This document shows positions 1 through 64,000 of a DNA stretch of 64,000 nt, one piece after another; within the stretch, counting starts at the first letter, position 1; each line of letters starts with the position of its first letter. The stretch lies in assembly GCF_011039175.1 (NCBI RefSeq), contig NZ_JAAKEN010000001.1:62001-126000 (forward strand), written 5' to 3'. Below the pieces are notes generated by a model. That model did not search any database, was not told where the DNA came from, and saw only the letters and a program-made list of their open reading frames with translations. The DNA comes from Slackia sp. ZJ119. Its GTDB lineage: Bacteria > Actinomycetota > Coriobacteriia > Coriobacteriales > Eggerthellaceae. The position numbers and the translations under genes are program-made.

Positions 1-84
1 GAAGGCTTTGGGGAAAGCACGGCAAGTTGAAAAAGTAGGCATCCATCAGCGGAAATGCCAATCCGGGCTACAGGGACGCTTGGG
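1..84. other. Upstream non-coding stretch
   Basis: No gene can be supported here. The first ten codons in frame 1 end in TGA at 28-30 and could be the tail of an upstream gene, but nine residues are too few to tell. There is no T-tract terminator. A weak 5-bp inverted repeat (GGCAT/ATGCC, 38-60) is the only other structure seen. Confidence 0.5.
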
Positions 85-113
85 TTGGCACGAGTAGTCC
101 TCGCGGGTATAGA
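85..113 (+). promoter_or_regulatory. Candidate sigma70-type promoter of the giant gene
   Basis: TTGGCA at 85-90 matches the -35 consensus at five of six positions. TATAGA at 108-113 matches the -10 consensus at four of six. They are separated by exactly 17 bases, the optimal spacing. Transcription would start near 120, giving a leader of about 118 bases before the ATG. It is the best promoter-like pair in the leader and points the right way. No start site has been mapped, so this is inference from sequence. Confidence 0.55.
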
Positions 114-120
114 GGGTGGG

Positions 121-140
121 GTCGACGTGGCTTTGTCGAC
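121..140. repeat. GTCGAC inverted repeat just downstream of the promoter
   Basis: Two copies of the palindrome GTCGAC (121-126 and 135-140) are separated by eight bases. With flanking bases 119-120 and 141-142 the stem extends to 8 bp including one G-U pair. The position, immediately after the predicted transcription start, suits either an operator for a dimeric regulator or a leader hairpin. Nothing in the sequence separates these two options. Confidence 0.4.
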
Positions 141-161
141 TCAGGGAACGCCCCTTATACG
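133..161 (+). promoter_or_regulatory. Weaker second promoter candidate
   Basis: TTGTCG (133-138) and TATACG (156-161) are also 17 bases apart, each matching its consensus at four of six positions. The -35 element overlaps the right arm of the GTCGAC inverted repeat, so a repressor bound there would block it. The match is weaker than at 85-113 and the predicted start would fall inside the hairpin at 160-179. Confidence 0.2.
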
Positions 162-179
162 CGCGCGAGCGGGCGCGCG
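160..179 (+). other. G+C-rich hairpin in the 5' leader
   Basis: CGCGCGC (160-166) pairs with GCGCGCG (173-179) around a six-base loop, a very stable 7-bp stem. No U-tract follows, so it does not look like an intrinsic terminator. It lies about 48 bases upstream of the ribosome binding site and could stabilise the 5' end of an extremely long messenger. That role is inference. Confidence 0.45.
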
Positions 180-226
180 ATTGTGGCCAAGCGTCCGCTC
201 AAGGGGCCCCGAATCCTTTGTGAGGG

Positions 227-233
227 AAGGAGG
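227..233 (+). promoter_or_regulatory. Strong Shine-Dalgarno sequence for the giant gene
   Basis: AAGGAGG lies four bases upstream of the ATG at 238. It decides the start: the next in-frame ATGs (349 and 379) have no such sequence in front of them, and the stretch between 238 and 349 forms the N-region of the signal peptide. Confidence 0.85.
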
Positions 234-237
234 AACC

Positions 238-486
238 ATGTCTGAGCACACAACTTCTACACAATTTCAGACATCTGGCTCCAACCAGAACGTCGAGACT
301 CCCCTCGGCGCGACCGAATTCGACATCGCGGCGAACTACGCTGCGAACATGTCCCGGTTTGGCCAAAGCGGCCTTTCCATGGGCACCACGCCGCGGCAGC
401 TGAAGTGGCCGTCCAAGGTGCTTGCGGTCATGTTGTCGATCCTCGTCGGGTTGACGTCGTGGAACTCGATATCCATCGCCGAAGCG
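238..486 (+). other. Extended signal peptide, residues 1-83
   Basis: About 58 polar residues come first, followed by a basic patch (R53, K56, K60), a hydrophobic core (V61 to about W75) and an Ala-Glu-Ala cleavage site at residues 81-83. Cleavage is predicted after residue 83. The N-region is far longer than in an ordinary signal peptide. This recalls the extended or YSIRK-type signals of large Gram-positive surface proteins and autotransporters, but I see no YSIRK motif. It indicates Sec-dependent export. Confidence 0.75.
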
Positions 487-3400
487 CGGTCGATCGTCAT
501 CCCCGACGATGAGACGTCGCTGGCGAGCTCGCCGGCCGACGAAGGGGCTGATGCGAAAGCCGAAGACAAAGCCGCCCAGGACGGCGGCGACGAGGACAAG
601 GGCGACAAGCCCGACGGGGACGAAGACCCCGCGTCCGACTACAGCGAATTCCTTCCCGCAGACCTGGTTGAAGCCGACCAGGTTTTGCCGTCTCTTTCGG
701 AGTCCCTCACCTCCAAGACGACCGCCGGTGCCCTGACTGCAGCCGCTGTAGAAGCCAAGAACAAGAACCGCAAAGACGCCGACAAGCTCGATCCTGAAAA
801 GGCGCTGCAGGACGCCTTTGGCGAGCGCTTCGCTTACACCCTCACGCCGAGCGGCGCGCTGAAGGCATCTGACGGCTCGCATCAGATCGGCGGCAGCTCG
901 GTGGTGCTCGACGCATCGCTGGGCGATTTGGCCGACACGCTCGACGGCGGCTACCTCGGCGGCGCGGCAGACGGCGACGTCGTGGTCCTCACGTTCGAGG
1001 CGCCGTACGTGTATCAGCGCACGGGCAACGCGAACGGTGAAGACGACAAGGAGGGAGACTTAGCGGCTTCTTCCGAATCTAGTACTAAATCAGCACTTGA
1101 AGACGCAGCCGCAACCGAACTCGAGGCTGCGGCCGCCGTGGCGGAATCCGACGCCGGAAATGTGACCGTCGCGGCTGACGGCACCGAATACGTCCAAACC
1201 CTCAGCCGCGAGGAATGGCTCGCCAACGGCGGCGACAAGACAGGCGGCCGCGTGGCTCTTTCTGCGTCTGATCTGCCGCAAGGCTGGACCGCCTGGACCG
1301 AGCACGGCGGCAAGTACCTGAAGGCCACCCCTGAATCGCTGAAGGAAGGTCTGTCCGGTCGCATCGTGCTGCGCTACGAAGGCGCCCAGGACGACAACGG
1401 CGTCACGGTGAAGGAGACCCGCGGACGGCTGACGGCGGACGCCGCCATGCCGAGCCTGGTCGCCACGATTGCCGGCGACGTGCCCGCAGTCGTCGAGCTG
1501 CCTATCCACGGCGGCTTCATGGTAGGCAGCTATACCGCCGCCGACAACGCCGACGCCGACGACATCTATTACTCTTATATAAAGAATGGCGCCGCCACCG
1601 TGTGGGTCGACAATGCCGAGCCGACGCTGGCCGTCACCGCAGAGGTCAGCCCGCTTGACAAAGAGCCGACGATGGGCACCGAGCGCGGGTATGCCCCGTA
1701 CCTTGTCAAGGTGGTCGCCGCGAAAGGCAGCGAAATCGAGAAGAGCTGCACGGTGCGCCTTGTCGACGAGCCCGACGCAGAAGGCAAGGGCGGCTTGGAA
1801 TCCGACGGCCTGATAGCGCTGAACGTGACGAAGCTTTCTGAAGAAGAAGTGGCCGCCATCGATCCGACCGACTCGCAGACGTATTCCATCGCGCCGGCCG
1901 CGAAGGTGACCGAGGTGGCGCCGGGCATCGTTGAAGCCTCGTTTGCGGCTGACGCCGAAATGAACGAGGGCGACGCGCGGCTGTTCTACGTCGCCGTGCC
2001 CTACGAGATCGAATCGCTGAACTTGCCCGAGGGCGCCGAGTGGTACGACGCCACGCAGCTTTCCTTTAGCGTGACCGCGGATCTGAATGCGAAGTTGGTA
2101 CAGGAAGAGAAGCTTATCGACGCCGAGAAGCCTGAAGACGCGCTGGCGGAAGAGGAAGCCGAATTCGTGTGCCCGCCCATCATGCAAGAGGTGTGGTTCT
2201 ATCCGCCGACCGAGCAGCCCGCCGAAGACGAGGGCGAGCAGCAGCCTGCAGAAGACCAGTCCGTCGAAGGCGACGAGGCCGAAGGCGAGCAGCCCGCCGA
2301 GGGCGAGCAGCAGGACGGGGAAGACCAGCCCGCAGAAGGCGAGCAGCTCGCAGAAGAGCAGTCCGCCGAGGGCGAGCAGCAGGACGAGGAGTACCGGCCT
2401 GCGGACGACGAGCAGCAGCCTGCCGATGAAACCGGCACTGACGAGCAGCTGGAGAACCCCTTCCTCGACCTGCCGCAGTACGACCCGGCCGTGACCGAGG
2501 CCATCGCCGGCACCAGCCTGCGTGCGGTCAAAGCGCCGCTTGGCCGCACGGCCTTCATGCTGCCGGCGTCCGCCAAGCCGCCCGCCGCCGAAAAGGGCCG
2601 CGGCGAGGATACCGAGCTGACGACGACGTTCTATCGCGCGTTTTCGACTCGCGCCACCTATTCGCTTGCGCCGCCGATGAGTGCAAACACCGCCACGCTC
2701 ACTGACGCCAACTTCAACCCGACGATCATTCCGAACGGCTTGTCCACCAACCTGGGCAACAACGTGTATCTGGTCAACTCCAAGGAAACGCCGTCGCTCA
2801 GCTTGCAGATCCTCGGCAGCGGCACCGGCTACTGGGGCGGCTACAGCGCCTACGGCGAAGACTTCTACGGCACTTACACGAAGCCGGAGGAGGGCACCGC
2901 GTACGTCTATGCGAAGAGCCAGGAACTGGCCGAAGCAGATCCTACGAAAGTAAAAGACTTTACGGACAGCGCAACCGAAAACCAGCTTACCGGCGAAGCG
3001 GCCGCTGCGGCTGCCGACAGAGCTATCGCGTACGCCGAGGGCAAAGCCGGCGCAGACGAAAACGAAGGCGACGGCTTTGGGCCGCTCAACTACCGGACAG
3101 AAATCGAGGCGGCGGAAAACCGGCAGGGTGCTCTGGCTACCGAGATTAAGACCAAACAAGCCGAGATTGGAACGTATGATGAAGCCATCGAAATGGCGCG
3201 GCAGGTCATCAATGCGTATCCGTCGGAGCAAGAATCTTATCCAGATTGGACGAGCCATATCTCGCTAACCGAGGACAATACGGCCGTGTTTTTGGCTCTT
3301 GGGGCTCGAATAGGCTATACGGGCTCCCCTACTAAATCAGCCGTCGAGCAAGCCATTGAATACTTCCAAGAACAAAAGGAGACCGCCGAAACCGCCATCA

Positions 3401-6400
3401 AGAACGACGAAGCCGAGATCGCCAGGCTTACAGACGAAGTGCGCTCGCTCAAAATCCAGGACTACAACGAGCAGAAGGACGCTCGCGGCTACGAGGAAAT
3501 GCGATCGCACCTGTACCTGCATGTGCCTTACCTGTACAAGAACCCGGCCGGCGGCATCAACTCCACCTATTCCTATGCGGACTGGCAGGCCCACGGCGGC
3601 AGCTATGACTCCGAGGGCGGTCCGGCCAACAGCGAAGCGCCGCTGTTCGCCATCAACTTCGGCACCAACGTCGAGACCATTCTGAACTATTGGAACGTCT
3701 ACCTTATTCCGGATCCGAGCGAACAGAACAAACGCATTTTGCTCAACGACGTGCTTCAGATCAGTCCTGGCGACACCAAGAGGCTTGACGATCTGTGCGA
3801 GAAGGCTGGCGTCAACATCAGGGGACTCAACTTCAAGCAGGGCGTGTCCGGCATCATCATGTTCGAGTGGCATGGCGCACAGGGCTCCGACCCCACCAAC
3901 ACCGGCTACGAAGAGCGCATGTACTCGACCGGCTTGAACCAGCGCGTGCCCAACGGCACCATCGCCATGCTGGGCGACATCCCCGAAAACGGCGGCGGCG
4001 ACATCTTGCTCGGCGGCGACACCTATGCCTGGACGAGCGTCAACGGCTCTATCGCCACCACCTTCTACCCCAGTAGCAGGCGTGGGATGAGGTTCAATGC
4101 GGCGCTGGGCGTAGGCCACAACAACTCCGTGCGCAAGATCACGCTGCTGAAGACCAACCTCACGTGGGAAAGCACCTATAAGGCCATTTCCAACAATATC
4201 TTGTTCGACCGCTACAATTATATGGTATACAAGATCGACACCGCCAACACGTCGACGGGCAATTCCGAAATCGACCATCTGACGTACTTCTTCAACGTCA
4301 CGAACACCGGCGAAGGCGGTTACGGCATTACGCCGCAGGACCTGAAACAGTGGTACTACAACAACGGCAACCCCGTCATGAACATGATGGACGAAAGTCA
4401 GCAGCTGGTCGCCGACCAGTTCGTCGGCATTCCCAACAAGGGCGGCGTGCTCATCTACAACACCACCAACTGGGTGGATGCCGACTACAAAGCGCTCGAC
4501 ATGCGCCAGTTCAGCAATTTGGACTCCATCATGGAGCGCGCCGAAGCTCGCAAGCGCATCTACACGGCCGACCTCGACGTGAAGGGCCCCGTGACGGTGC
4601 AGGTGAAGGGCGGCCAGAAGTTCGAGTTCAACCACAAGGGTGAACTGAAAATCAACGACGGTGCGGCTGAGCCATTGGAGAACGAGACTCATGTCTATGC
4701 CTCAGAAGGCGGCACGCCTGTCACCGTGAAGTGGAACAAAGACCTGCGCGAATGGGTCAACACTGCAAACAACGACATCGTGACCATCCCGAATTGGTAC
4801 GGCGATGTGACACCCGACGAAGACGGCAAGTTGGCGCTGTACAACGAAGAGACCGGCGAGCTGACGGTTACGCCCGATGGCGCCATCATGCAGTCCAACG
4901 GCAGCGGTACGTACACCTACACGCCGAAGGACTGGCGCCTGGAGCTGCGCGTCACGCCCAAGACGCAGGAAGACATCGATAACGAAACCGTCACCACCAC
5001 GCAGCATCTTGAGCGCGTTGTAGAAGAAAAGACCGCTGAAGACGGGACTAAAACTAAGCAAGTCACCTTCAGGGACATCGACAAAAACCGCACGGTTGCC
5101 ATCAACGACGCTTTCAAGAACTCCGCGACGGGAGTGCATGAGCCTCGCGATGGGTCAGTGGAACTCAACGGCGGCACCACCACCATCACCTTTACTCGGA
5201 CTGAAGACTTGGTCGATCCGGAAAAGAATGACGGCAACTACATCTATATCTACGAAACCGTTCAAAAGCCCGACAGCAACGTGAACGTGCGGATGCGTCT
5301 CATGTCGCGCGGCGACGGCGATGAGGCCACCGCCACCTACGACTACGCCGGCGGCACTGGCACGCGCACCTTCATCTACGATCGCGCTACCGACAATCTG
5401 CCAGCAAACAAGATAGAACCAAGGTTCGACGACAAAGGCAACCCCGAGATCACGACGCAGGCCATTCCGTACCAAACCAACGGGCAGACCGGCCAGGTGA
5501 ACTTCCGCTTGTACGACACCGAAGGCGGACATTTGTTCCCTCGTGACAAGGTGGTCGACTACACGTATCTTGAAGGCGGCACCCCGCAAAGCATCATCGT
5601 GGAATCGGATACCGCCGCAGCTGGCAACACGCCCACCTGGAAGGATCTCCAGGGCAATGCGGTCACGCTCGCCCCTGTCCACACCATGGAAACCGTGTCC
5701 ACCTACAACTACACGCCGCAGGACCAAGATGGAAGCGCACCGGTGCGGGTCTACCTCTCAGCCGACGGCTCTTATTACCGGGTCGACAACAGCAAACAGG
5801 TGGTGCCGAAGGAGGGCGACACGCTGGAGCCGGACAACCAATCCGAATACCTCTACACGTTCACGCCCGACGGCACCCCGCAAACGGTCGCCGGCAACGG
5901 CGTGTCCACCTGTATCATGGCGGTGCCGTACACCACGAATTTGAAGAGAAGCATCGGCGCGTTGGGCGAGGGCTATTACGTTGACCTGGACCCGTTGACC
6001 ACCGTTCGCTTCGGCAAGCTGGGCTATACGAAGGACTACACCTGGTCTGACACAGTCGCTCCTTTCAGCAGCATGTTCAAAGGCCCCGAGGGGTCTATGG
6101 AGGTGAAGAAGTACATCTGGGAGATCCAGAACAACGAGCTGGAGAAGGTCACATCCACGGAAAACAGCTACTTGGGCTATCCGGTCACGTATGAAATCGG
6201 CGACATCAAGCTGTCGGGCAACATGCCGCTGTATGGCAAAAACCCGCTGTCGACCACGGTCGGCCCGGACATCATCGACCAGCTGCCTGACTACTTCCAT
6301 CTGTACAACATCGAGATCGACGTCACGTCGACGTCGAACGATGCCAAGACCGCGCTGGCGCAGTATTTCAACACCAACACCGGCAACGGCGTGTCGGACA

Positions 6401-9400
6401 CCGGCGCCGTCACCATGGGTGACTTCGTCGACGGCATCGACCCTGACTACGAGCGGGGAACAAACGTCGTGCAGTTCCGCGTGTCCTTCCCCAGCCAAGT
6501 GGCAAACGAGCTGGACTACACATGGATCAACATGGGCGCCCCGAAGTACGTGGAAAACTCCAAAAAGGAAGTCGGCACGGACGACGAGGGGAACACGCTC
6601 AACAAGTACACCTTCCGTCTGGGCGGCACGACGTATGAAGACGCCATCGCCACGCGCATGGCGCAGCGCGAGACGACCGACGCCGAAAACAACACGACAT
6701 TTGGCACCATCGCCAGCGTGCCGGGCTTCCAGAAGAACCTTGGCGACACCGAACCGTCTGAATACCAGTTCACCGGCATGTTCCGCGTGAACATGAAGAC
6801 GCCGGTCGAAAACGGCCAGACGCTGCCAGTGGCCGTGCGCGTGACCGGCGCCATGACGCTGCCCACCTTGAACTATGTGAACAGTGCGCATATCGAATAC
6901 GGTCTGCGCACGTGGAATTACGCGAATTCGGCTTATACGTCGCAGGCCGACGTGACCCCTTCGGCTTCGGCCGTCTATACGGTCGCGCTCAAGCCCGACC
7001 CGAAACTGAGCGCCACGGCGCTTGCGAAGGCGGTCGTACCGTTCCAGAAGAACGCCGAGATCGGTCCGGAGCGCACGACGAAGAACGCTGCGCTGCAGCC
7101 GGTGTTCCAACGTTCGGGCGCAGGCTGGCGCTTCACGCTTGACAACAAGTCGAAGTCCAAAATGAAGCCGGCCGTTTTCTCGATGGGGACCGTCTATGAA
7201 GACCCGCAGAACTCTTGCCAGGGCTACAACGCCGAGTCCATCAACTTGTCGAAGGGCCTGCTTGCCCACAGCAAGATCAGCAAGGTCGAAATCGTCTCCA
7301 AGAAAAAACTCGACAACGCGCTTGCCGGATCGACAACTCAAACGCGGACCTTGTCGATGAGCGATCTCAACGAGAAATACCTGGACAGCGAGAGTAAAAA
7401 CATCATCATCAAGAAGGGTGCGTGGGACAACGAGTATTTGGTTTCGGTGAAGATCTACTTCGACGAATTCGATTCCATCCAGGAACTGGCGGTTGGCTCC
7501 AACGGACCTTGCCAGGTTGAAATCGTCGGCACGCCGGTGGGCTTGGCTCTCATGGAAATGACGGGCACCTTCTCGACGACGTATGAAGACTATGCGCAGA
7601 ACCAAAAGGTGCGCAACGTCGCCGCTTCTCCCGCCAAGGCCTCTTTCGTGTCCATGAAGGCGCCGTACCGGCCCATCATCACCGTGCAGGGCATGCGCGA
7701 CTCCACGTTCACGGAGCAAGGCACTGGCGACTATGGCGCCACGCTGGGCGCCTTGGATCTGGTGAGGACGAACAACGTGGTCACTCAGGCAAGGCCGTCC
7801 AAGTATGAGGCGGGTGGACATGCCACGTCGCCGTTCAATACCTACAACTACTTTGAAGGCTATCCGGGCATTCCGGGCACCGGCTGGCGCATCGGCATAT
7901 CGAACGACTCCGAGTTCGACATGGGCAACACCGTCATCAAGGTGGGCACCGTGCTGGCTGAATCGAAGGGCGCCGGCAAGATCGCGACGCAGGCCAACCA
8001 GGTCGCCTCCATGCCTATTCCGTTCAAGGACGCCGACGAAGGAAGCGGGTTGGAGTACTTTGACGCGAAATACCTGGTCATCAGCCCGGATATGTGGCAG
8101 ACCTCGAAAGGCCAGAAGACCGAGTACAAAACCGAAAACGGCGTCTTTGTGAAGGACGGCAATGGCGACCTTGTGACCGAGACGGTTGACGCCATTGTCC
8201 GCAAAGGCGGTGTGTTTGGCGACTTGGTACTGAAATACAACTTGAAGTCCGAAGCGAACGATGCTCCTGAGCACACGTTCGCCATCGACGGCGCCTACTT
8301 GCGCGCCGTGGCCGAGCAAAACAAGCAGACGCTTGGCGACGATGGCCAGGTGGTGGAAGGCGATCGGCAGCCCTTGCTGTCTGTCGCTGAGGAAGCCAAG
8401 CTTGAAAACCTGAAGACCGACTCGGACGAGCAGAAAAAGTTCTTGGATTCGATTGACGCCAAGGCCGCAGCGGCAAGGCTTCACGGCATCACCATGAACG
8501 AGGCCGGCTACATCATCATCGACTTGAAAAAGGTGGCCAGCAGCGGGTTGCTGTCCAAGGGCGCGGCCGAAGGCGCCAATCTGCCCGCCGACTTCTACCT
8601 GCGCGGCTTCGATCTGGCCATGGAAAACTTCGGCTATGGCCTGAAGCCGGACGGCAGCGCGTTCATCGACGTGTATGGCCAGCTTGAAAACGTCCAGACC
8701 ACCGAAGACGACCTGTGGCTGGGCGCCACGTTCACGACCGATTACGGCAATGCTGCGTGGGATACCGCCATCGACAGCAAGGGCGTGCTGTTTGCGGCCC
8801 ACACGCCCCACGGCATGAAAGTGACCGTGCGCAGCATGAGGCAGGCCGCATCGCTGGGCGACCCGAACGCCAAACTTGGCAATGACGAAAAAGTAATCGT
8901 GACCGACGCCGCCAACACCGAAGGGGTGCACGAGGCGTACTTGAACCAGGAAGGCTCGGGCTGGCGCATCAACTTGACGAACACGTCCTCTTACGCCATG
9001 CCTAAGGCTGTCCTGCGTGCGGGCGAGGTGCTGACCAATTCGCTCGGAAGCAATACGTCGACAAGGCAGGTGTACGCGGTTTCCAACGAAACGGGCCTCG
9101 CGCACAGCGACAATCGCATTCTGTATCGCGACGGGAAGCCGGACAGCAACCTTGTGAACTTCCGCGCGTCGCATTTGGTAGCCAGCGCGGCTGTGGCCGA
9201 AGCCGCCACCTACGGCGACTTGACGCTTGAATTCGTGCATGACGGCGACGGCAAGACGAACGACCAGTCGCGGGAGCAGTTCGTGATCGACGGCGCGTAT
9301 CTGCGTGCGGCGGCCGAGCAGGGCGACGCGGGCAGCATTAATGCGGAAGCGGCCAAGAACGTCGGCATTGCCAAGAATGACGGCGGGTTCCTCGTGGTCG

Positions 9401-12400
9401 ACCTTGCGAAGCTGGCGAAGAGCGGGCTGACGACCAAGGGCGGCACCGCTACCTTCCCCGCCGACTACTATCTCTGCGGGTTCAGGCAGGAATTCACAGA
9501 CTTCAAGGGCAACGTTACGTCTGAAGATGCCTACATCGACGTGTACGGCGCGGTGGTCAACCTCGGCGAGATGACGTTCGGCGCCTCGTTTGAGACGAAC
9601 TACGCCAAGCCGCGCTGGAACAGCGGCATTGACGCGCAGGGCAAAATGTGGGGTGCTCGCGCACCGTACAAGCTGGGCGTGAAAGTGGAAGGCATGCGCG
9701 ACAAGCCGACGTCCAAGAGGGGCAACACCGAAAACGCTGTGACCGATCCTAAGAATAGGTACAGCATTCTTGAAGCCTTCATGGACCAGCCGGGCAGCGG
9801 CTGGCGCGTCACGCTGACCAACCCCACCGACTACCAGGCTCCCGAAACCGTCGTGCGCGTCGGCAACGTGCTGGAGGGCTCCCTCAATACCAATGACAGC
9901 GTCAATGCATGGACCGGCAAAGAAGTGGTCGCCACGTCCAACGAAGGCCTGACGCACACGGCCCGCGCCATCCAGCATCGCGACACCGATCCGGAAAGCG
10001 GCCTCGTGAACTTCCGTGCGTCGCACATCGTTGCGAGCAAGGGCGTGACCGACAACGCCACCTACGGCGACCTGACCATCACGTATCTGCCTGACGTCAA
10101 TGCTAGGGGCGCCCAGGAAGAGAAGACGTTCACCATCGACGGCGCGTATCTGCGCGTGGCTGCCGGCCAGGCCGAAGGCGATACCGAGACCATCGGCGAG
10201 CAAGAAATCAATGCTGCCGAAACCGCAAAGGTCGGCATCACGGCCAGCAACGGAGAGGTGTCCATCGATCTGGCGAAGCTGGCTCAAAGCGATCTGGCGG
10301 GCGCAAAAGAGGGAGAAGGCACCTTCCCGACCAACTATTATCTGCGCGGCTTCGACCTGAAGCTGACGAACTTCTCCGAGCAGGTGAGGGACGAGTCGAA
10401 TGCGTACCTGGAAGTGCACGGCAAGGCGATGAACCCGAGCGTGCGCATGACGCTCGGCGCGTCGTTTGAAACCGACTTCGACATCAAAAAGTGGAACAGC
10501 GGCATCGACGCCCAGGGCAACATCTGGGGCGCCCGCCTGCCGCATCGTTTGGGCGTCGAGGTGCAGGGCATGCGCCATTCGGTCACGTACGGCGCCAATC
10601 CTGAGAAGATCGACAACACGGAAAGCCCCGTGACTGACACCGACAACACGGGCAACGTGCTGGAAGCCTACCTGAACCATGGCGGCAGCGGCTGGCGCAT
10701 CAACGTGTCGAACGGCGCCTATGTCGTGCCCCGTGCCGTGCTGCATGTGGGCAGCGTGCTGGAAGGCTCTATTGGAACAAGCAACCCGGCGTACAGAATA
10801 GGCCAACAGATCAACGCTGAAAACGAGACGGGCCTTCACCACGTTGACCGCTATGTGCCGTATCGCGACACCGCCGAAAAGGGCGGGTTGGAATGGTTCG
10901 ACGCATCGGCCATCGTGATAGGCAAGGGCCTCAAGGATGATGCCGACTATGGCGATCTGCACATCCAGTACTTCCTTGGCGGCAACGACGACGGCGGCAA
11001 GCCGCGCACGAATGGCCAACGGCTGAACACCTTTGTCATCGACGGCGCGTACCTGCGTGTGGCGAGCGGCCAGGAGCCCAGCGCAACCGTGAACGGCGAA
11101 ACCATCACGGCTGACGTGGCTCGTCAGCGGGGCATCTACACGATGACGGGCAACTCCGAGCAGGCGCTCAACACCGGTGCGCTCGTCATCGACCTGGCGA
11201 AGGTGGCCACAAGCCAGCTGAAGGGCAAGAACAGCGACGCCACTTTCCCGACCAACTATTATCTGCGCGGCTTCTCCCTGGATCTGACCAACTTCATCAG
11301 CACGGGTTCTGACGACGACGCCTACGTTGACGTGTACGGCGCGGCGATGAACATCGGCCGCATGCCGCTCGGCGCGTCGCTGCAAACTGTCTACGATCTG
11401 CATAAGTGGGACAGCGGCATCGATGCACAGGGCCAGATCTGGGGCGCCCGCGCACCGTACAAGCTGGAACTGACCGTGAAGGCCATGCGCGAGGCTCCCG
11501 CGCCTGGCAAGGATGATGCCACGTACACGCGCGTGGGCGGTGACGTCGAAGGCTATATCTTCGACAAGGGCAGCGGCTGGCGCGTGAACATTTCCAACGA
11601 CGCAGAATACGGCATCGAGAAGGCCGTCGTTCGGGGCGGCGTCGTGCTGAGCGAAGGCTTGGGCACGAAGACCGACATCCGCAGCAGCTCGCCCATCATC
11701 AAGGCGCACAATTCGCTTGACTACGGTCGCACGGACAGGAAGATTCCGTACCGCGACACCGAGTATTCAGAGCAGGGCTACGTTGGCCTGACCGACTTCG
11801 AAGCGCAGTACCTGGCCATCAGCCCACAGGTGTACGGCGAGAAAGGCGGCCAGCTGGGCGACTTGACGCTGCAGTACTTTGACGACACGAAGCTCGCCGG
11901 CGAACAGCAAGAGCAGAAGCTCGTCATCCCGGGCGCGTACCTGCGAGCGGTCGCCGGTCAAGAGGGAACCGAGCTGCCGCTGCCGGCTGACGCGGGCGAG
12001 AATGACGAGCCGCAGCAGGCGACGGTTGCGGCGGCGAGTGCGCTTGGCATCACGAAACGCGCCGATGACGACTTCATCATCATCGACTTCGCCGCGCTGC
12101 AAGATGCCGAAGGCGCCATCAGTCTGCCTGAAACGTTCTATCTGCGCGGCTTCGAGCTGAAGCTGACCGACTTCAAGCCGGGCCTGAAGCAGGAAGACAA
12201 CGCGTTCATCGAGGTGAACGGCACGATCGTCAACCAGGACGACATGTATTTCGGTGCCACGTGGGAAACCGATTACGAGCGCGTGAGGTGGAACAGCGCG
12301 GTCGACTCTCAGGCGCTGCTGCGCGGCCGACCGTATCCCATCGATGGCACGCCGGCGTTGAGCGATTACGTCATTAAGACGTACGGCCAGACAGACCCGG

Positions 12401-51400: not shown

Positions 51401-54400
51401 ACGGCTACGTCAGGGTCACCGACGACCTGAGCAACAAGGATCGCGACGAAAGCGGCAATCCGCGCGAGTACGACGTGCTGCGCGAGTACATTACGGACGG
51501 TAGTGCAGGCCCGACTTATCGTGATGCGAAAAACAATGAAGTATCGGTCGAGAAGACACCGGGCAGTGACAACTCCATCACGTACGAGAAAGCAGGTGAC
51601 AGTTCGGTCCGGTATGACGTGCTGATCGTCTACGACCTGAGCAGCAGTGCATCCGACGGCGAAAACGTGCGCATCATGCTTCCTGAGACCAAAGAGAACG
51701 GCGGCAAACGCGAAGACATCACCGACAAATCGCTCTTCGCCATCACCAACGACGCCGGCGTGACGCGCTACAGCGCGCACCACTCGCTGCTCAACCTCGA
51801 CAACGAAGGCGCGAGCAAACCCATCAAGCTGACGATGTACACCGACGGCTCCTACGAGGTGGCCAACGCGAACAAACCTACAGGGTACAACGTGCTCATC
51901 GTCACCAAGACGATCAAGCGCAAGGTGACCGGGTACGAGATAGACGAAGCCGGCAACCAGGTTCCGACCAGCTATTCTGATGAAGTGACGACCACCTATC
52001 GCAACAAGGGCGGCCAAGTGATAACCGACGTTGCCCCGGAGAAAAAGGCCGACGGCAGCTGGGTGTACAAGTCCACCGCCGGCATTCCCTACGACTTCGT
52101 GTACACGACGAGCACGGAAGAGCTGTACGACTTCACGTACGATATGAGCGTCGAACCGATGGGGCAAAAGTACTCGCTCACGTCGTCGAAGACCGATCGC
52201 TCCTACACCGACGAAAACGGCAAAGACCTGTCGCCTCAGATCTCCGTGTCCATGGAGGTGAGGAACGAGCATGCATCCGGCGCGAAATTCGCCATTGACA
52301 CGTATCCGCTGACGCGCACGGTGGTAACTGAAATCACGCACGACGTGGCGGCTGACGAGAGGTACGAGTACTTCGACTGGGGCTACGTGGCCGAAAAGGT
52401 GGGTAACAGGCCGTACCGCAACCTCGACGCGCAAACGCCGCTGTGGACCTACTACGTGGTCAACCTGGACGAAACGCTCGGCGTGACCGACATCATTTCT
52501 GACGATCCCGAGTCTGGCAAGATCGTGCCCGAGACGCTGCCGCGCATGAACCTGCCGCAGATCTACAAGTCTGACGTCAAGAAGCACAAGCAGGGCGCAC
52601 TGCGCGTGGCCGACCAGAAGACCGATCCTGACGCCGAGGAATCGGCGACACGCCTCATGTTCAACTGGCGCTTCACGGGCCATCGGTCCACCAAGCTCGA
52701 CACGGACACGAACAAACCGATCACCGACGAAGCCGGCAACCAGCTCACCGACACCTCGCTGGGCGTGCTTGAGCCTGGCCAGGGCATCGTTGTGGAATTC
52801 ATGATGCCCATCGACGAGGAAGCCGACGACCTGCGCGACGACGACGAGCTGATGGACAGCGCCTGGGGCAACAAGATGGGCAACTTCAAGCCCTACCTGC
52901 CCGTGCAAGACACCAGCTCCGACGACTCGGGCAAAACCGCCGGCAACACCTATTCCTATGACTCTGACGTGTCCGACGTCAACCAAGACTCGAACTACGA
53001 GCAGTCGATGGTCAAGGTGCAGACGCCGATGCTTGAATTCGCCGGGTCGAACAACGTCGACTCCGACAAGGCTGTCACCACGCAGCTGGAATCCATGTCC
53101 ACCTACACCACGAACGGCGCGGCGGGCGTGCCTGAAGGCTCCACGTATTCCTACCACGCCACCGTGACCAACCCCGAAACCGATGAAACGAAGGCCCAGC
53201 AGTACAAGTACATCGTGCTGTACGACATCCTGCCGCACGAAGGCGACAAGTACGTGCTGAACTCCAACAACGGCAAAGGGCAGCCGCGCAGCTCCAAATG
53301 GCACGGCTATCTGGAAGACCTTGATTCCATCAAGGTGAAGCGCTATGCAGCCAAGAGTTCCAGCACGCCTGCGGTGGACGAGGTGCTCGATGACGGCAAG
53401 GACGTCGACATCTGGGTCGGCCCGTTCACGAAGACCTCAAACGACGACGGCTCCTTCGACATCCAGATCGCCGATATGAATGCGCTGCTGTGGCTCTACG
53501 ACAAGGGCAAGATCTTCTGCGACGACAGGGACAGCAAGCTGTTCGGCACTGAAACGCACGACGACGAAACGTTCTACCTGTTCGAGGCCATGCGCAAAGG
53601 CGTCCACGAAACGGGACCCAGCGGAATCATCCAAGTGGAAAAAGACGACACCTACGAAGAAAGCCCGAAGAGCGTGTGCCAGCTTCACTGGAAGTATTAC
53701 TTCGAGTCGGACCACACGGCTGAAGAGATCAAGTATAGCCAGGGCCTCGTGCGCCTGTCCGAACTGAAGGAATACCTCGAGTACTATCCGGAGAAGGAAG
53801 AAGAGTACACCCATGCGCTGCGCGCCATTTGGGCCCAGCCGGCCAGCGACCTGTTCGTCAAGCGCAAGGGCTATGTGCGCCTGAGCTATGACCTGGTTGC
53901 CCCGCTGAACCTGCCCAAGTTCGTGGGCACGAAGACCAACGACCCGAGCGTCGATTTGTACACCGTCACGCCGAGCGAAGGCATGACGCTTGCCGAGGCT
54001 GAAGCGGCCCTGAAACCCGAAGAAAAGGTGCGCTACGCTCGCGCGAACCAGCTGCGCGCCGCCATGCAGCTCAACTCGGTGGTGGCTCGCGTCAACCAGA
54101 CGAGCTCTGACGACTACTCGGCCATCTATCTGCGCGAACTGGGCGAAGCCGGCGCGTTCATCGACGCGCCCGACAACCGCGGCTACATTGGCGACTACGT
54201 GTGGCTCGACACCGACTGGTCCGGCACCCCGCAAGATGACGTGTCGGTACTGACCACCGAGGAACGCGGTCCGGCTGGCCTGGGCGAAGAGGGTGCCAAG
54301 CCCGTCGTGTCCGAAGTCGACACGAAGACCGTCGTGGACGAGGGCACCGGCGAAGAGACTACGCAGCTCGTCGACGAGTTCGGCCATGAAGTGACCACGT

Positions 54401-57400
54401 ACGAGCCGTCCCTCAACGGCCGCCCGCTGCTGCGCGGCGTCAACCCGGATACGGGCAAGCCGTTCGACCACACGAAGGTGACCTACCGTGATCCCGAGAC
54501 GAATTTGGACAGGGAAGACGTCGACCTGAAGGAAGACCTCGACTACGACCTGAAGACCGACGATCCGGGCCTGAACCGCGTGAAGGTCGAACTGCTGAAC
54601 GAATACGGCGTGCCGGTCAACCGCGACGGCGACGCGTCGGTGTGGCGCAAGAACGACAAGACCAACGACGTCGGCCGCTGGGTCGTCGCCGATGCACGCA
54701 CCGGCGAGCCGGAGATCAACGCATTCGGCAACTATACGATCGCCAACAGCGGTGCGCCCTACGTCACCTACACGAAGACCGACTACTACGGCAACCCCGG
54801 CTATTACATCCTGTCCAACCTGGCGCCGGGCACCTACCGCCTGCGCTTCACCTTCCCCGAGGAGTACTACAACTACTCGCCCACGACGAAGTCCATCGGC
54901 GACGAGTCGCTCTACAGGTTTGAGAACGAGACCGAGCTGACCGTCGAGCGCGTCGAGCGCAACGACACCGATCCGGAAAACATCGTCGAAGCGGCGCTGA
55001 AGGTGACCACCGGCCCGGTGGAAGTCGAAAAGGTGCAGTACGACGTTGACCCGGAAACGGGCAAGGTCGAAAATCACGCAGCCTACGACGCCAAGATGAC
55101 GTCGATGAAGCTCGGCATTGCCCAAGGCGTCACGTTCGACGGCGTAGTGTACCGCGACGACATCTTGGCCGACGGCACGGTTGAAGACGAAAACGACATC
55201 AACTCGCTGCTCGACTCGATCGGCTTGGCCAAGCCGCAAGCCGTCATCAACGAGAACGGCGCCGAAGAGCTTGAGCAGCTGTCCGCCGAGGAAAAGATGG
55301 TCGGCGCCACCGCTGCGCCCGAGAAGCGCCTCGAAGGCATTCGCGTGAACGTCTACGAATACGATCCGGAGACCAGCACGCTGTCCACGAAGATCGCCAC
55401 CGACGCCGACGGCCAGCCCGCCACGCTCGTCACCGGCACGGACGGCGCGTTCCGCTTCCGCCTGAAGAACGACAAGCATTACGTCATCCGCACGGCCGAC
55501 ACGGTGCCCGACCGCCTGATCAAGGCAACGCTGAACACGTGGGACAAGGACCCGCTGAAATACCAGACCGACGACTTGTACTATGGGGATTCCAGCTACA
55601 AGGTCATCGACAACGACCTGCGCTATGTGTCCGGCTCTGCCCGCACCTATCCGTTCAAGGCCATGCTGCCGCTTGACGAAGACGGCCGCGCCATCTTCGC
55701 CGACCCGAACAACACCTGGAAAGGCTACGAGCGCCAGGATAAGTTTGCCTTGGGTTACATTGACGGCACGAAAGGCTACCTGGGCGACACCGTTTGGGAG
55801 GACGAGAACTACGACGGCATCCAGCAGAGCGAAGAAGAAGGCATTGGCCAAGGCGAGGCCGACGGCATCAAGGTGAAGCTGGAAACCTGGTACTGGGCGC
55901 CGAAGAACACCGAACTGGTGTGGATGCAAAGCCTCAACGCCGACGGCACGCCCAAGTACGTGCTGAAGGCTGACGGCTCAAAGCAGCCGATGATGGCAGA
56001 CGCTGCAGACGGCGGCCTGAAGGATGGCCAACCCATTCCCGTGTACGAACAGAAGCTTGTCGCGCAGGGCACGACGGAGGACCTGACGACCACGAACGCT
56101 TCGTCCATGTTCACCGAATCTGCCGACGACAAGGTCTACGTCACCGACGAGTTCGGCAATTTCAAGAAGGATGAAAAAGGCCAGAAGATCGTGGTGAAAA
56201 AGGCGAAGGCCAGTGCGTCTGGCACTACCAGCAACAGCGGCTGGGCGTGGCAGCTCTATCCCGGTACGGAACAGCCGGTGACCAATGAAGCTGGCGAGAT
56301 CGTCTACCAGACGAACGACGACGGCAGCGTCAAGGTGGATGCTGACGGCAAGCCGATTCCGAAGACCGAGTGGAGCGACAAGCTGCGCGAGGCCTACACG
56401 GGTGCTTCGGCCGGCGCGGGCACGTACCTGTTCCGCGACGTGACGTCCTACGTCGTCGATCCGCGCGACACCCGCAACATCGACGACGATTACAAGACCA
56501 AGCGCATCGCCGGCTACCGCCTGCGCATCGACCAGGAAGACCTGACCGGCCGCGAGGACGACTACGCCATCACGCTGCGCGACGCCAAGCTGCCCGGCGG
56601 CGGCAACGCCATCGACGCCGATTCCGACCTGCTGGCCAAGGCCGTCGAGACCACCGTGCTTTCGCAGGCGAAAGCTGACGGGCATCCCGACAACAACCAG
56701 ACGTCTGAGGGCAAGCGCACCGACGGCAAGTCCACGCTGACCTATTACCTGAACGAAGACGGCTCGGCCGCCGAGGCGGGCTCGTTCTACAACAGCTACA
56801 TCGTCATGGCCAATATCGGCAAGCTGACCGCACAGCCCGATCCGTTCACGGAGCTGCCGGTGCACGTGCGCACGCAGGTCGCCTACACGGCCACCTACAC
56901 GAACGAATCCGACACGACCGAATACGTCACGCTGAGCGACCCGTATCCGGCGGGCGCGAACGTGTGCGCCACGTCCGCTGCCGTGACCTATGGTGGGGAA
57001 GAGTATGCGGCCGGTACGGAGGCGACCGGGCTGGACCATGTCTTCAACGGAGAACCGTCGCTCATTCCGGCGACTTTGACAGAGGTGCCCGCCCTGGCTG
57101 TCCAGGGTTCGACCGAGCTCAACGCCACTGACGCGCGTCAGCGCATTGTCATCAGCTCCATCACGGACGCCGATGGGAACCGCTCTCTGACGTTCGGCGG
57201 CACCTGGACGCCCTTGGGAGAAGACGTCGAGGTCGAGAACGGCCTGCGCCTGCTGCCGGGCGAAAAGGTGACCGTAAAAGTCACCTATGACTTGAAACCG
57301 ACCAAGACCATTGTGCACGCCGTGACCATCACTGGCGGCACCGAAAACGTGATCGAGACGAACACCGTCAGCCACAAGGTCGAGCGCGACCTCGTGGGCA

Positions 57401-60400
57401 TCAACCCGCTGCCTCCGTTCATGAACGCCACCGCCGGCAGCGACAACGACGTCGTCACCTATGACGATAACGGCAAGGAAGAAAGCAAGAAGACCCCGCT
57501 CAACCGTGTGCCCAATGTGGTTGGCAAGACGTACGCCCAGGCGAAGGACGACCTTGAGGCTAAGAAGCTCGTGACCGGCCGCATCACGTTCGCCAAGACG
57601 GATGATCCAACGAAGGCCGGCACGGTGGCCGCGCAGACGCCGAAGGTGACCGACGAGGCGGGCAACCCGATCGAGGTCAAGAAGTTCGACGGGCAGCCGG
57701 TGAACCTCACGCTGTACTACTTCGACAACGGCACCCAGAACTACGACACGATGGGCTACGACGGCTCTGACAGCGACAAGGACCCGGTCGTGAAGGCGCG
57801 CAAGGCTGCCAAGGCGGGCGCGGGCGCCACCGAGCCTGCGGATGACGCCGTGCTCACCTATGCCGACGAGCTGAGCAAGACCGACCACGTGAGTTACAAC
57901 CTGTCGGCTGCGGCCATCGAGGCCATCGTAACCGAGTTGAACAAGACCCTGCCCGAAGCCGACCAGCTGGCGCTCGTTGACGAGAAGGGCGAATCCACCA
58001 TCGGCACGTCGTCCTACCTCATCCCGGTGGGCGACTTCGCGGGCGACACGTTCACGTACCACTACGTGGGCACGACCCGCTTCAACGTCGAAATCGGCGG
58101 CGACGTGGCCGGCGTGACCGAACCGCAGCTGAACAACTTGTGGGCGAACGTTTCGGCGGCCAAGATCCGCATTCCGGCCAAACCCGTCGAGCCGCTGAGC
58201 CCCGACAAGATCAATCCGGAGACGGGCGAATTCGCGTGGGCGAAGTACCTGCCTGCAAACGTGGAGGCGGACAAGGCGGACGCCAATCAGAAGGCCGAGG
58301 CCATGAGCGCGGCAGACGGCGCTTGGCAGGAGGCGTGGGACGAGTTCACGGCCGACTACGCCAGCAAGATCGGCTTCGCGTACTTCAACAACAACGGAGA
58401 GCCGATCACGCTTGAAGACGTCTCTCCGATTGCCGGCACGGACGTTCCCTACATCCAGCCGTACGTGACGAGCAATCTCGACAAACCCTTCCAGCTGGTC
58501 ATTCCGCAGAAGTCCAACAAGGAAATGTACGAGGCGTACAAGAAGCTCTATGACGGCCCGCAACCGCAGGTCAACTCGGCAGCAAGCTACGCCTACCTGG
58601 TCAACGAGAAGGGCACCACGGACCTCATCACGTTCGACTCCGAGGGCGTCAAGACCGGCTACGGCACGAAGGCCGTCACGGTCAGCTCCGATTCGAGCAA
58701 GAACTTCCCCGGCTTCAAGCGCATCTACGACAAGCTGAAGGGCGAATACGACGCCGCGGTGAACAAGTACATCGAAGCGATGACGCTCTACACGCAGCTC
58801 AACGACGAATACAGCAGCTACAAGGCCGACTACAAGCATTACCTGCAGGAGAAGCTGGAATACGAGTCCGAGATCGACTACTCGTCTGGCAAGATGCTGT
58901 TCAACGAGAAGGCCGACGGCACGGCCGCCACCAACACGGTCTACGACCTGGGCGACGCCGCGCGTCTGTACAACTGGGACGCCGGCCTGGTCGTCGTGCC
59001 GCGCTCGACGGTCACCGGCAAGGTGTGGGACGACTCCTACTTCAAGGCCGACACTCCCGACAGCCTGGCGGCACGCCTCACCTACGACGGCGTGACGCCG
59101 GCCGACCTGGAAGAAGCGGTGAAGGGCATCGTCGCCCAGCTGACCGACAAGGCGCGGTCGAACGATCAGAGAACAGCGATCCAGGATGCCTTGGCCAAGA
59201 ACAAGCCGTTCAACTACATAGACGCAGAGCTTGGCCTGAGCCCCGAGCAGATGCAGGTGCTGGACACCGAGCTGTCGAAGCTTGCCTATAACGGCATGCA
59301 GGACAAATGCGAACCTGGTATTGCAAACGAACCGGTCTACCTGACCCAGTGGTACTACCTGCCCGTCACCGAAGAGGTGGAACGCAAGGATGAAAACGGC
59401 CAAGTGGTGAAAGATGCCGACGGCAACATCATCTACGACACCGTGTACTGCTGCGACACGAAGGCATTCGCGAATGCCGTTGCCAAGGTCGATACCACGT
59501 CGGACGTGGACCAGGAGCAGGCCAAAGCCAAGCTGAACTTCCTGCTCAAGAAGGCCGGTCTCGAAGGCAAGAACCCCAAGGACATCGAGCCTGCGACCGA
59601 CTACTCCGGCCTGTGGGTGCGCTCCACCACGTTCGGCACCGACGAGCAGACCGGTCGCTGGACGGCCGTGTCCAAGAACGAAGACACGCTGGTGCAGGTG
59701 AGCGGCGAGGGCGACGCCAAGACCGAAACAAAGGTCGGCTACGATGACGTGGTGCAGAAGTTCGCTGAAGCCGAAGCTGCGCACACCCCGGCCCCGAACG
59801 GCACCTACTACCGCGTGGACGGCGACAAGCGCTACGAAGTGCGCTCCATCTACGGCGTGCTGAAGTACCTGGAAGGCCCGCGCACCACCGATTCCTGGAC
59901 CGTCAGCGCTGATGAAATCGACGAGCGCATCGACGGCCTGGTGGCGGTCAATACCGGCGAAGTGGACAAGCGCGTCACCGTGGACGCCGGCGGCAACCTG
60001 AACGTGGAATACAACAAGGACAACCTGGGCGTGTACCGCTTCGACCATCTGCCGAGCGCCTACACTGCGCCCGACGGCTCGCACTACCTGGCGGCCTACC
60101 GTCTCGTGCTGCCCGACACCTATTACTACAATCCGGACACGACCACCACGGCCGACGACGAGCGCTGGCTGCTGTCGAAGTACCACAGCGCCGGTGAAAG
60201 CGCAGGTGAAGGACTGACCAACTCCGGCGCCATTCTGGAAGAGCTTGCGGCCGACTCCGACGTGTCCGACGGCACGGGCGGGTCGATCATCGCTGCGCGC
60301 ACCCGCGGCTATGCCCTGACGGCGCAAGACACGGTCGTCATCCCGGCCGTCAACGAGACCGCCAGCGAAAGCGCTGCCGACCCAGACACGCTGCTGACCG

Positions 60401-63400
60401 GCGTGCGCGCCCACAGCGGCCAGATCATCGTGGCCGGCATGACCACCAACACCCTTGGCTCGGCGCGTCTGGCCGACAAGAACACCGACCCTGCCGTCAT
60501 CCAGGAATCGAAGGTGACCATCCCGGTGGCCGACGTCATCCAGGTGGACGGCGAGGCCGCAAACGGCGGCGCGAAGGGCGAAGGCAACAAGCCGCTCATG
60601 GTGACGTTCGACTATCTCACGTACAAGTTCCTGGAGGATGCGAACGGCGAAGCGGTGAAGGACGAGAACGACAACCCGATCAAGCAGGTCGACGGCGGCT
60701 CGGTCGGCGAGATCCGTCCGCCGGTGCAAGACATCACCGGTTTCGTGTGGGACGATTCCAACGACCACACGCCCAACAACGGCATCCGCGACGACAACGA
60801 GCACGGCGTGGACGACGTCCAGCTGACGCTTGAGCGCTACTGGCAGGTCGCCGAAACCGACACGTCCAAGACCGATGCGACCAACACGTGGACGCGCGAC
60901 GACACGTGGGCGACTGCCGACGCCTATAAAGCCTACGAAGCAGACCCGACCGTGGGCCTGAAAGGCGAGAAGTACGGCTCGCTCACCTACGGCGCGAACA
61001 AGCCCGAGTTCGGCAAGCCCAAGGCCGCTACGGGCTCTGCGGTCGAATTGCGGGTCGGCTACGCCAACGGGGAGAAAGTCGGATACTACGACCAGGAGGC
61101 CATTGACGCCCTGACCACCGCGAAGGACGAAACGGTGGCCGCGCTGGTCGCCAGCGGCGTCACGGACGCCGGTTCGATGACCGACGTTCAGGCACAAGAC
61201 GCGATGAACGCGGTGAAAGCCGATCTGGAGGCGACGCCGAACACGCTGACGCCGGCAGAGAGGGACGCGAAGACCGGGCAGATGACGAACCTGAACCGCT
61301 TGGCCAACATTCTCGCAAAACTGGCTGAGCAGACTGCGCTGAATCCGCTGGGCGACCGCACGGTCGTGACGCGCGAGTTCAACCACAACGACGAAAGCGA
61401 AGAGGACGGCTCGTATTGCTTCGCGAATCTGAAGACCCAGGGCATTTTGCCGCTCGCCCCCGATGACGACGGCAACCTTGTGGTTGACGCCGAGAACGGC
61501 AAGAAGACCCGCGTGGTGTTCGCGTACCGCGTGCGCGTCACGGCAAAGGATTGGTGGAACCGCTACCTCGGCACGGCGAAGTACCTGCAGGGCAGCGACT
61601 ACGCCATCGACGGCGAAGGCCACCTGACCGACTCCGACCTGATCAACGACACCGGCTACCTGATGAACGATGGGCTGGTCAACGACGGCAACGCCGCAGA
61701 CGACGAATACACCGTGCTGCTCGACGTGGCCGACACGACGTGGAAGACCGGCAATCCGGCCGAGAAGGTCGACCGCCACGACGACAAGGGCGCGACGCTG
61801 CGCTACAACCAGGTGCTGGCGTCCAACCCGAACAACCCGAACCAGAACACGGCGGACACGTACGGCAGGGACGTTGACGAAACGTTGTTGACCTATACGC
61901 CGAAGCAGGCGGCATGGGCGAATGTTTCAAGTACTGGAAACAAACCTGGTACTACAAACGAAACCAATGCGGTCGCCCCCGCGAAGAACCTCACGTACGA
62001 TCTGGCTCGTGGCGCCGACCGTGCGTCCAACGACGCCGGCCTGACGGTCCCGGTGAAGCAGCCCATTGAAGGCACGCTGTTCAACGACGTGGACTATGAC
62101 GGCAGGCTGGACATCGCGAACGGCCAAAACAACGCGACCGACAAACTGCTTGCCGGCAAGCGCGTCATCCTGAAGCAGTGGTACTGGGTGCCTGTGGACA
62201 AGATCATTCCGGGCACCGAGACGATGAGCGACGGCAAGCCCGTTCCGGACACCGGAACGGTAAGCACCGGCCAGTGGGTGCAGTACGAGAACTTCGGCAA
62301 CGACGCCTACACGTGGGCCGACCATATCTGGGAAGGCGACGCCTCCACCGGGTCCTATAAGGCACGTGGCGAAACGTCCTCCGACTACGACGGCGTCGTG
62401 AAGCAGTTCGTCATCAAGAATTCGTACTACTACAACCCGGCCGAAGACGGCCTGACCGGCGATGCTGCAGATGCCGCCTCCGCCAAGGTGTTCGTCTACA
62501 CCGACGAAAACGGACATTACAGCTTTACCGACCTGCCCACCCGCGTGGTCATCGAGCGCGGCGGCAAGGCTGACCAGGTGGCACAAGAGTACCTGGCCGG
62601 CTACACGGTCGAAGTGCTGGGCGGCCCGGTGGCCGAGGGCGACGCGGACGCCGTGAACGGCCTGCCGGCGACGCCGCTGCAAGAAGGCTCGCTCGCTGCC
62701 GACGACGTCAATTCCAAGGCGGTCAGCAACTTCGAGGCCAAGAATCTGCGCAGCGCCGAAACCGCGAACGTGAGCACCAACGTGTTCGGCCGCTATGACG
62801 AGGGCAACTACCCGATCCTCTGGAACGAGCGCACGGTACAGCTTGGGTTCGGCGAGAACGGCACCCAGGCTCCGTTCAATGACAACGTGGAGACGGTGGG
62901 CAACAAGGTTTCGAAGTCCACGTTCGACGGCATGATCGTGTTGGCGGGCCGCGGCACGCATGACGCCAACCAGGCGAGCGTTGCAACTGCCGGCACGGAG
63001 GTTTCGCGGGGCACGTCTTCGTGGTACCACGTGGCGGCGATCCGAAATGGCGCCGAGGCTCGCGGCCCCGTGGTGGCCGACGTCGAAGCGTTCAAGCCTG
63101 CGGAACCGACCGTCAACTACGCCAAACAGGACGTGCACTTCGACTGGTCGCTCGGCCTGGGCGGCACCGTGCCGTCGGAGAACAAGGGCGAGCTGCGCAT
63201 GAACGCCGGCTTCGGCGAGTTCGGCCTGTCCGACATCTCCGGCAAGGTGTGGCAAGACGGGAACTTCGACGGCGTCCTCAATCCGGGCGAGCTTGTCATG
63301 GCCGACGCCACGCTGTCCATCAGCCAGTGGTTCTTCGTGCCGGAAGGCACCAAGACCGCTGACGATCAGGACCTGATCACAAAGCTGAAGGCCGACACCT

Positions 63401-64000: not shown

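Follow-up and report, generated by a model that had tools for sequence, protein, structure and literature searches.

The question raised by this locus is what is encoded by a reading frame that opens near one end of a 64,000-nucleotide stretch of DNA and runs past the other, and why a cell would keep it. This stretch, referred to below as the window, comprises bases 62,001-126,000 of a 406,786-bp contig in a genome of 2.84 Mb (40 contigs, 99.9% complete). We use A for the giant gene of the window, B and C for its two paralogues, and G136 for a single-contig genome of the same genus. The sequence-only reading of this DNA had proposed that the frame is one real protein, still unfinished at the edge of the window.

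Extent and reality of gene A

The frame carries no in-frame stop from 238 to 64,000, as had been reported. Upon extension of the contig downstream, which that reading had advised, a TAG is reached at contig position 153,422, preceded by a sortase-type signal, and the frame is thereby completed. From ATG 238 to this TAG, gene A specifies an acidic, cysteine-poor protein of 30,394 residues (3.3 MDa, pI 4.5). An in-frame ATG is also present at 55, from which the ORF listing gives 21,315 aa with an open 3′ end. ATG 238 is nevertheless the likely start, since AAGGAGG lies just upstream and the first codon is where the match to the orthologue of the sister species sets in. A similar leader, CTCTGAGGGAAGGACGAACC, precedes the start of B (ATG C39:9464).

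With random codons of the same base composition, about 904 stops would be expected over the length of gene A, and the two other forward frames of the window hold 628 and 431. One antisense frame over A has only 25 stops in the window. The longest antisense ORF over A is 5,114 aa long (window 24052-39396, minus strand). The GC3 of gene A is 0.839, and its long antisense ORFs are most likely shadows of this high value.

G136 carries an unbroken orthologue of A at the same locus, 30,597 codons long. The flanking blocks of more than 400 bp are 89-97% identical between the two genomes on both sides, except for an 867-bp block just upstream (79%). The neighbours of A are MurT/GatD-, TatA- and SNF2-type genes upstream and DnaK, DnaJ and ClpB downstream. 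In a MAFFT alignment, A and its orthologue share 58% protein identity, and each of the 16 blocks of 2,000 codons has a Ka/Ks within 0.32-0.61; for C, the range is 0.24-0.37 in 12 of 12 blocks. On this comparative evidence, gene A is a real, continuous and selected protein-coding gene, in line with the earlier claim. The notion that it is an assembly artefact or a decayed gene that merely looks open, which might be prompted by the 40 contigs of the source genome, can be dismissed along with chance given the independent single-contig orthologue of near-equal length with its open frame and syntenic flanks, a Ka/Ks below 1 in every 2,000-codon block, and the number of stops expected.

Divergence between A and its orthologue is distributed unevenly. 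It should be noted that the MAFFT alignment forces weakly related stretches together, making Ks in the arm (residues ~500-20,500, window 1738-61737) a rough value, and that the chain of local matches read in 500-codon windows omits A from ~28,000, the first ~4,800 residues of C and four arm windows. In these windows, Ks is 0.10-0.23 for three flanking genes or gene parts, 0.26 for the first 500 residues of A, 0.66-1.4 for the arm (20-64% protein identity where aligned), 0.27-0.61 for residues 21,000-25,500 and 0.72-1.13 for residues 25,500-28,000. The final two MAFFT blocks have Ks of 0.29 and 0.17. Ka/Ks reaches 1.02 in one arm window and 0.98 in a window near residue 27,500, both of them poorly aligned, and is below 1 in the other 500-codon windows. 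Thus, divergence from the sister species is much greater in the arm of A than at the N-terminus, in most of the stalk and in the neighbouring genes. Recombination, or an exchange of alleles long ago, would account for this and is a possible origin of the pattern.

The surroundings of the gene were also searched. Over 2.5 kb upstream and 0.9 kb downstream, the exact inverted repeats have arms of at most 12, and an invertible promoter before A was set aside on this basis. No Rfam family reaches its gathering score in window 1-2000, where a 5′ RNA element was sought. A phage origin of A was likewise rejected, as none of the 35 pattern matches from a viral-contig scan with the N-terminal alignment was confirmed.

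Anatomy of the protein and its relatives

The features of A that fall within the window are collected in Table 1. Where a signal peptide had been noted earlier, a hydrophobic, signal-peptide-like stretch can be made out by eye, but some 55 residues of extension precede it. A similar hydrophobic N-terminal stretch is visible in relatives of A.

Table 1. Features of gene A in the window, with window coordinates.
Feature	Position	Strand	Basis
Giant gene A, residues 1-21,254	238..64000	+	Open frame; continues past the window to TAG, contig position 153,422
Shine-Dalgarno AAGGAGG	227..233	+	Read from sequence, ahead of ATG 238
Hydrophobic stretch resembling a signal peptide, residues 56-84, preceded by a 55-residue extension	403..489	+	By eye from translation
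First conserved N-terminal region, residues 135-870, presumed tip	640..2847	+	Alignment of 21 family members
Acidic tandem repeat within the N-terminal region	2229..2423	+	Tandem Repeats Finder
Second conserved N-terminal region, residues 1085-1450	3490..4587	+	Alignment of 21 members; AlphaFold2 model
~290-residue repeat, 4-5 copies roughly 27-47% alike, residues 2,650-4,034	8185..12339	+	Self-comparison
Core, residues ~6,800-18,600, mostly common to four short (9.6-10.6-kaa) members	20635..56037	+	Family comparison
Best conserved core stretch, residues 13,150-13,850, 40-61% identical to 13 relatives	39685..41787	+	Alignment
SdrD_B-like (Cna-B type) stretch	55780..55884	+	Pfam above cut-off, E 1.1e-7
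PASTA-like stretch	57505..57648	+	Pfam above cut-off, E 1.6e-8
Start of wall-proximal super-repeat, unit ~1,420 residues, residues ~20,400-25,300	61435..64000	+	Self-comparison; runs beyond the window

At the other end of the protein, residues 30,350-30,394 comprise LPQTSDP, a hydrophobic stretch and RRRR, i.e. a sortase-type signal. The sorting motif is LPQTS, not LPXTG, in A, B and the orthologue, and LPQTG in C; B ends with LPQTSDP and C with LPQTGD. The C-terminal ends of the other members read are comparable, with LPTLGD, LPKLGD or FPKLGD at the position of the motif in three relatives. The same genome has two PF04203 (sortase) matches over the cut-off and two below it. One of the former, at C37, lies in a stop-free frame, and the other has an internal stop.

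Pfam matches along A are isolated. In the Pfam scan, which covered residues 1-30,001 of A minus codon 21,255 (the final 393 residues were covered by NCBIfam), SdrD_B and PASTA are above cut-off once each and DUF4124 barely so, and no family is above cut-off in residues 1-18,000. Several matches fall below the cut-offs, including coiled-coil-like ones and, in the super-repeat region, SdrD_B and carboxypeptidase-regulatory-like ones. Six stretches of A have no NCBIfam match. In the self-comparison, 183 of the 303 windows of 200 residues each are without another match in the protein.

Structure prediction was applied to the second N-terminal region and to the core. The AlphaFold2 model of the former (396 aa) has a mean pLDDT of 68, with values of at least 80 in 15 of its first 18 ten-residue blocks. 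VIA-align matches this model weakly to the C-terminal domains of streptococcal antigen I/II (Z 5.2 at best, 3.3 Å over 108 residues, within model residues 1-223 of 396). The best eight rows (Z 4.1-5.2) consist of six antigen I/II-type adhesins, one pilin and S. sanguinis SSA1632; the antigen I/II Z scores are in a range that VIA-align calls common, and lower rows include pore-forming leukotoxins (Z up to 3.6). The core model is poor (mean pLDDT 43), and no fold is claimed for it. With neither model does Foldseek give a hit at E ≤ 0.001, and PDB sequence searches with the N-terminal and core alignments return nothing at E ≤ 1. A picture of the arm as a series of elongated modules is unproven because of the Foldseek result and the poor core model.

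The first 421 residues of A match two further open frames of the genome, namely B (34,927 codons between stops) and C (22,174 codons), both of which are collinear with A over its length. Together, the three genes occupy 262,987 bp, or 9.3% of the genome (ATG to stop, with B counted from ATG 9464).

Beyond this genome, the N-terminal query matches 42 genes in 18 of 138 Eggerthellaceae genomes, as counted from the result table. The class-wide search, in which an alignment of the best conserved core stretch served as the query, identifies 17 of a sample of 396 genomes of the class; these represent 5 of 153 genera and all belong to the Eggerthellaceae. Since at most three candidates were scored per genome, the copies per genome are lower bounds. 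A contig scan with a single-sequence query gives no relative, and the alignment query gives 27. Two size groups dominate among the open frames of the family, one of about 18-35 and one of 8-13 thousand codons; the others are shorter fragments that frequently lie at the end of a contig. Among the named members are Adlercreutzia mucosicola, A. faecimuris, A. caecimuris, A. muris, A. equolifaciens and A. agrestimuris, Parvibacter caecicola, a Gordonibacter and a Rubneribacter MAG. The names of these relatives suggest that the organism is probably from the gut. More distant matches (26-32% identity, frames of at least 3,700 codons) occur in Massiliimalia and two Ruminococcus MAGs.

The order of segments along A is kept from end to end by 13 other members. 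Four short ones align in parts only, namely at the N-terminus, the core, parts of the stalk and, mostly, the C-terminus. The super-repeat is the exception to this collinearity, as its best matches jump between copies.

G tracts at the fronts of the giant genes

B changes frame at a G13 tract (C39:10143-10155, locus L011), which splits ~226 N-terminal codons from the rest of the gene. This tract is a candidate site of phase variation or a homopolymer sequencing error. We consider it alongside the fronts of all 42 genes matched by the N-terminal query, including five with frames below 2,500 codons (590, 614, 703, 1,226 and 2,486), some of which are cut by contig ends.

In 19 of the 42 genes, a coding-strand run of at least eight G (G8-G13) lies no more than 1,700 bp from the first conserved region. 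From -2,500 to +5,000, the runs of eight or more comprise 23 of G, 2 of C and 2 of A. In 8 of 42 genes, against 0.10 expected, a G tract of at least ten is present in the 700 bp that lead up to this region, an excess of about 80-fold that should be read with the facts that this interval was picked after the positions were seen and that tracts of related species are not independent. Within 1,700 bp on either side, such tracts are present in 10 of 42 genes against 0.48 expected. The expectations derive from 336 tracts of this length in the 18 genomes. Past codon 1,000, by comparison, 14 giants (854,670 bp) contain no G run of eight or more and a single C run.

The tracts differ in where they lie with respect to the frame. 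Intragenic tracts leave the frame open in six cases (L116, L130, L131, L053, L128 and L126) and apparently break it in five (B in L011, L115, L118, L132 and L133), while those upstream of the frame include L114, L117, L121 and L043. These calls depend on the likeliest start: L118 and L132 have an ATG in the downstream frame that lacks a Shine-Dalgarno sequence, L116 has an ATG in another frame directly before its tract, and the contig of L126 ends ~735 bp past its tract. The gene at L115 has an open frame of just 1,226 codons.

Near their starts, the family genes of other Eggerthellaceae (L114-L118, L121, L130-L132, L043, L053, L126, L128 and L133) have coding-strand tracts of G9-G12. By eye, the G9 of L117 and the G11 of L121 appear to occupy the same site in different species. 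Homopolymers of eight or more are absent from gene A and the 20 kb before it, and neither its orthologue nor paralogue C has a G tract.

The pattern in the relatives and in B suggests phase variation by slippage. We consider it likely that the giants form a switchable set of up to five genes per genome, many of which would be wall-anchored adhesins of 1-4 MDa, with some turned on and off by slippage at their front G tracts; B would be out of frame at G13, and A and C are tract-free. If such a switch exists, the cells of a clone would differ, with just a part of them bearing the cost of any one giant and exposing it, and this would be one answer to why such genes are kept. A switch of this type has been measured in the sortase-dependent pili of Bifidobacterium breve (PMC9187656). 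As described there, these are also surface structures of a gut bacterium whose frame is set by the length of an intragenic G tract; they differ in being polymers of pilins with measured slippage, whereas the giants are single chains for which slippage is deduced from sequence, and A has no tract. Among the matches listed by our literature search, whose scope excluded preprints and most subscription journals, none concerns switching of Eggerthellaceae giants.

Two observations on G tracts stand apart from the family genes. The genome G090 has 98 tracts of at least ten G, as opposed to 1-33 in each of the 17 other genomes searched. Outside the window, at C34:142212-142267, long runs of G and C face each other, perhaps as an effect of assembly.

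Proposed function and known giant proteins

We read A as a wall-anchored surface protein because of its sorting-type signal, the sortase of the genome, its composition and its SdrD_B-like stretches. More specifically, A would be a giant modular surface protein of Eggerthellaceae, most likely a far-reaching adhesin, to which we assign a probability of roughly 0.75. Its N-terminal signal would export it, and sortase would cut the C-terminal LPQTS signal and tie the chain to peptidoglycan. The wall-proximal third may serve as a repetitive stalk with Cna-B-like stretches and the next roughly 20,000 residues as a long arm. The N-terminus of wall-anchored surface proteins faces outward, and for this reason the conserved front is the likely tip, which may bind host mucus, a food particle or other cells.

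The uneven divergence along the gene can also be read in another way. Blocks that evolve differently (Ks of ~0.3 in the first 500 residues and 0.27-0.61 at 21,000-25,500, against 0.66-1.4 in the arm) would suit a polyprotein, made whole and cut after export into several surface proteins, such that no 3.3-MDa molecule is present on the cell. We regard this as unlikely, since the sorting-type signal is at the very end and could not retain pieces cut from the arm, and since, the super-repeat aside, segment order is preserved over the whole length of the members read.

Another alternative, which we consider a long shot, concerns what the giants are for rather than how they are made: they may build an envelope layer instead of binding a target. 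Three paralogues and 9.3% of the genome suggest bulk, and a coat has been proposed for the Omnitrophota ORF of 39,678 aa (PMC10066038). However, the G-tract patterns of the relatives and the fast-diverging arm are easier to reconcile with an exposed contact molecule than with an essential coat, and 379 of the 396 genomes of the class have no match.

We compare A here with other very large bacterial proteins. The sequence-only reading had set A against a Chlorobium giant of 20,600 residues; A is indeed longer, but that length is not the record. A longer Chlorobium protein has about 36.8 kaa; our literature search did not return it. A record length for A is rejected in any case, given the printed Omnitrophota ORF (Velamenicoccus archaeovorus; PMC10066038). 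Like A, the Omnitrophota giants are encoded by single ORFs that span tens of thousands of codons, and they are thought to act at the surface, whereas the protein of V. archaeovorus is longer, has 42 predicted transmembrane helices and is proposed to have a coat or predatory role, the likeness being one of description (PMC10066038). Giant1-5 of Apilactobacillus kunkeei are likewise very large extracellular proteins that take up about 6% of a small genome, but they have 3,000-8,000 residues, with helical repeats in Giant1-3, and neither "sortase" nor "LPXTG" occurs in the text that describes them (PMC12863079). The giant adhesin of Mobiluncus mulieris, also compared by description, is another very large protein, made of many cross-linked Ig-like domains; at 7,651 residues it is a quarter of the length of A (PMC10619420).

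The closest precedent is from the family Eggerthellaceae itself. In 2013, two "giant genes" with LPXTG, 24.7-24.9 thousand codons long, were described in Adlercreutzia equolifaciens and called putative surface proteins, and the literature also reports a strain without giants. As in A, these genes (74,766 and 74,247 nt) encode a C-terminal LPXTG-type end and a surface-type composition; relative to AEQU_0093, A is 22% longer and B about 40% longer. A is thus a larger member of the kind noted in 2013. In the parts of that literature available to us, the A. equolifaciens giants come with no analysis of family, architecture, selection or switching. What is surprising here is the share of the genome, the conserved architecture of the family and the likely on/off switch in relatives and in B.

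Gene A, its paralogues and its orthologue make a clear-cut example: in a 2.8-Mb bacterium, three giants account for 9.3% of the genome, and selection is demonstrated for A and C. Why cells keep such genes becomes testable because cultured relatives exist, namely the type strains of Adlercreutzia and Parvibacter. In A. equolifaciens strain DFI.6.87, relatives of A have open frames of 24,860, 20,475 and 12,867 codons, and through this strain we infer that AEQU_0093 and AEQU_1251 belong to the same family of Eggerthellaceae giants.
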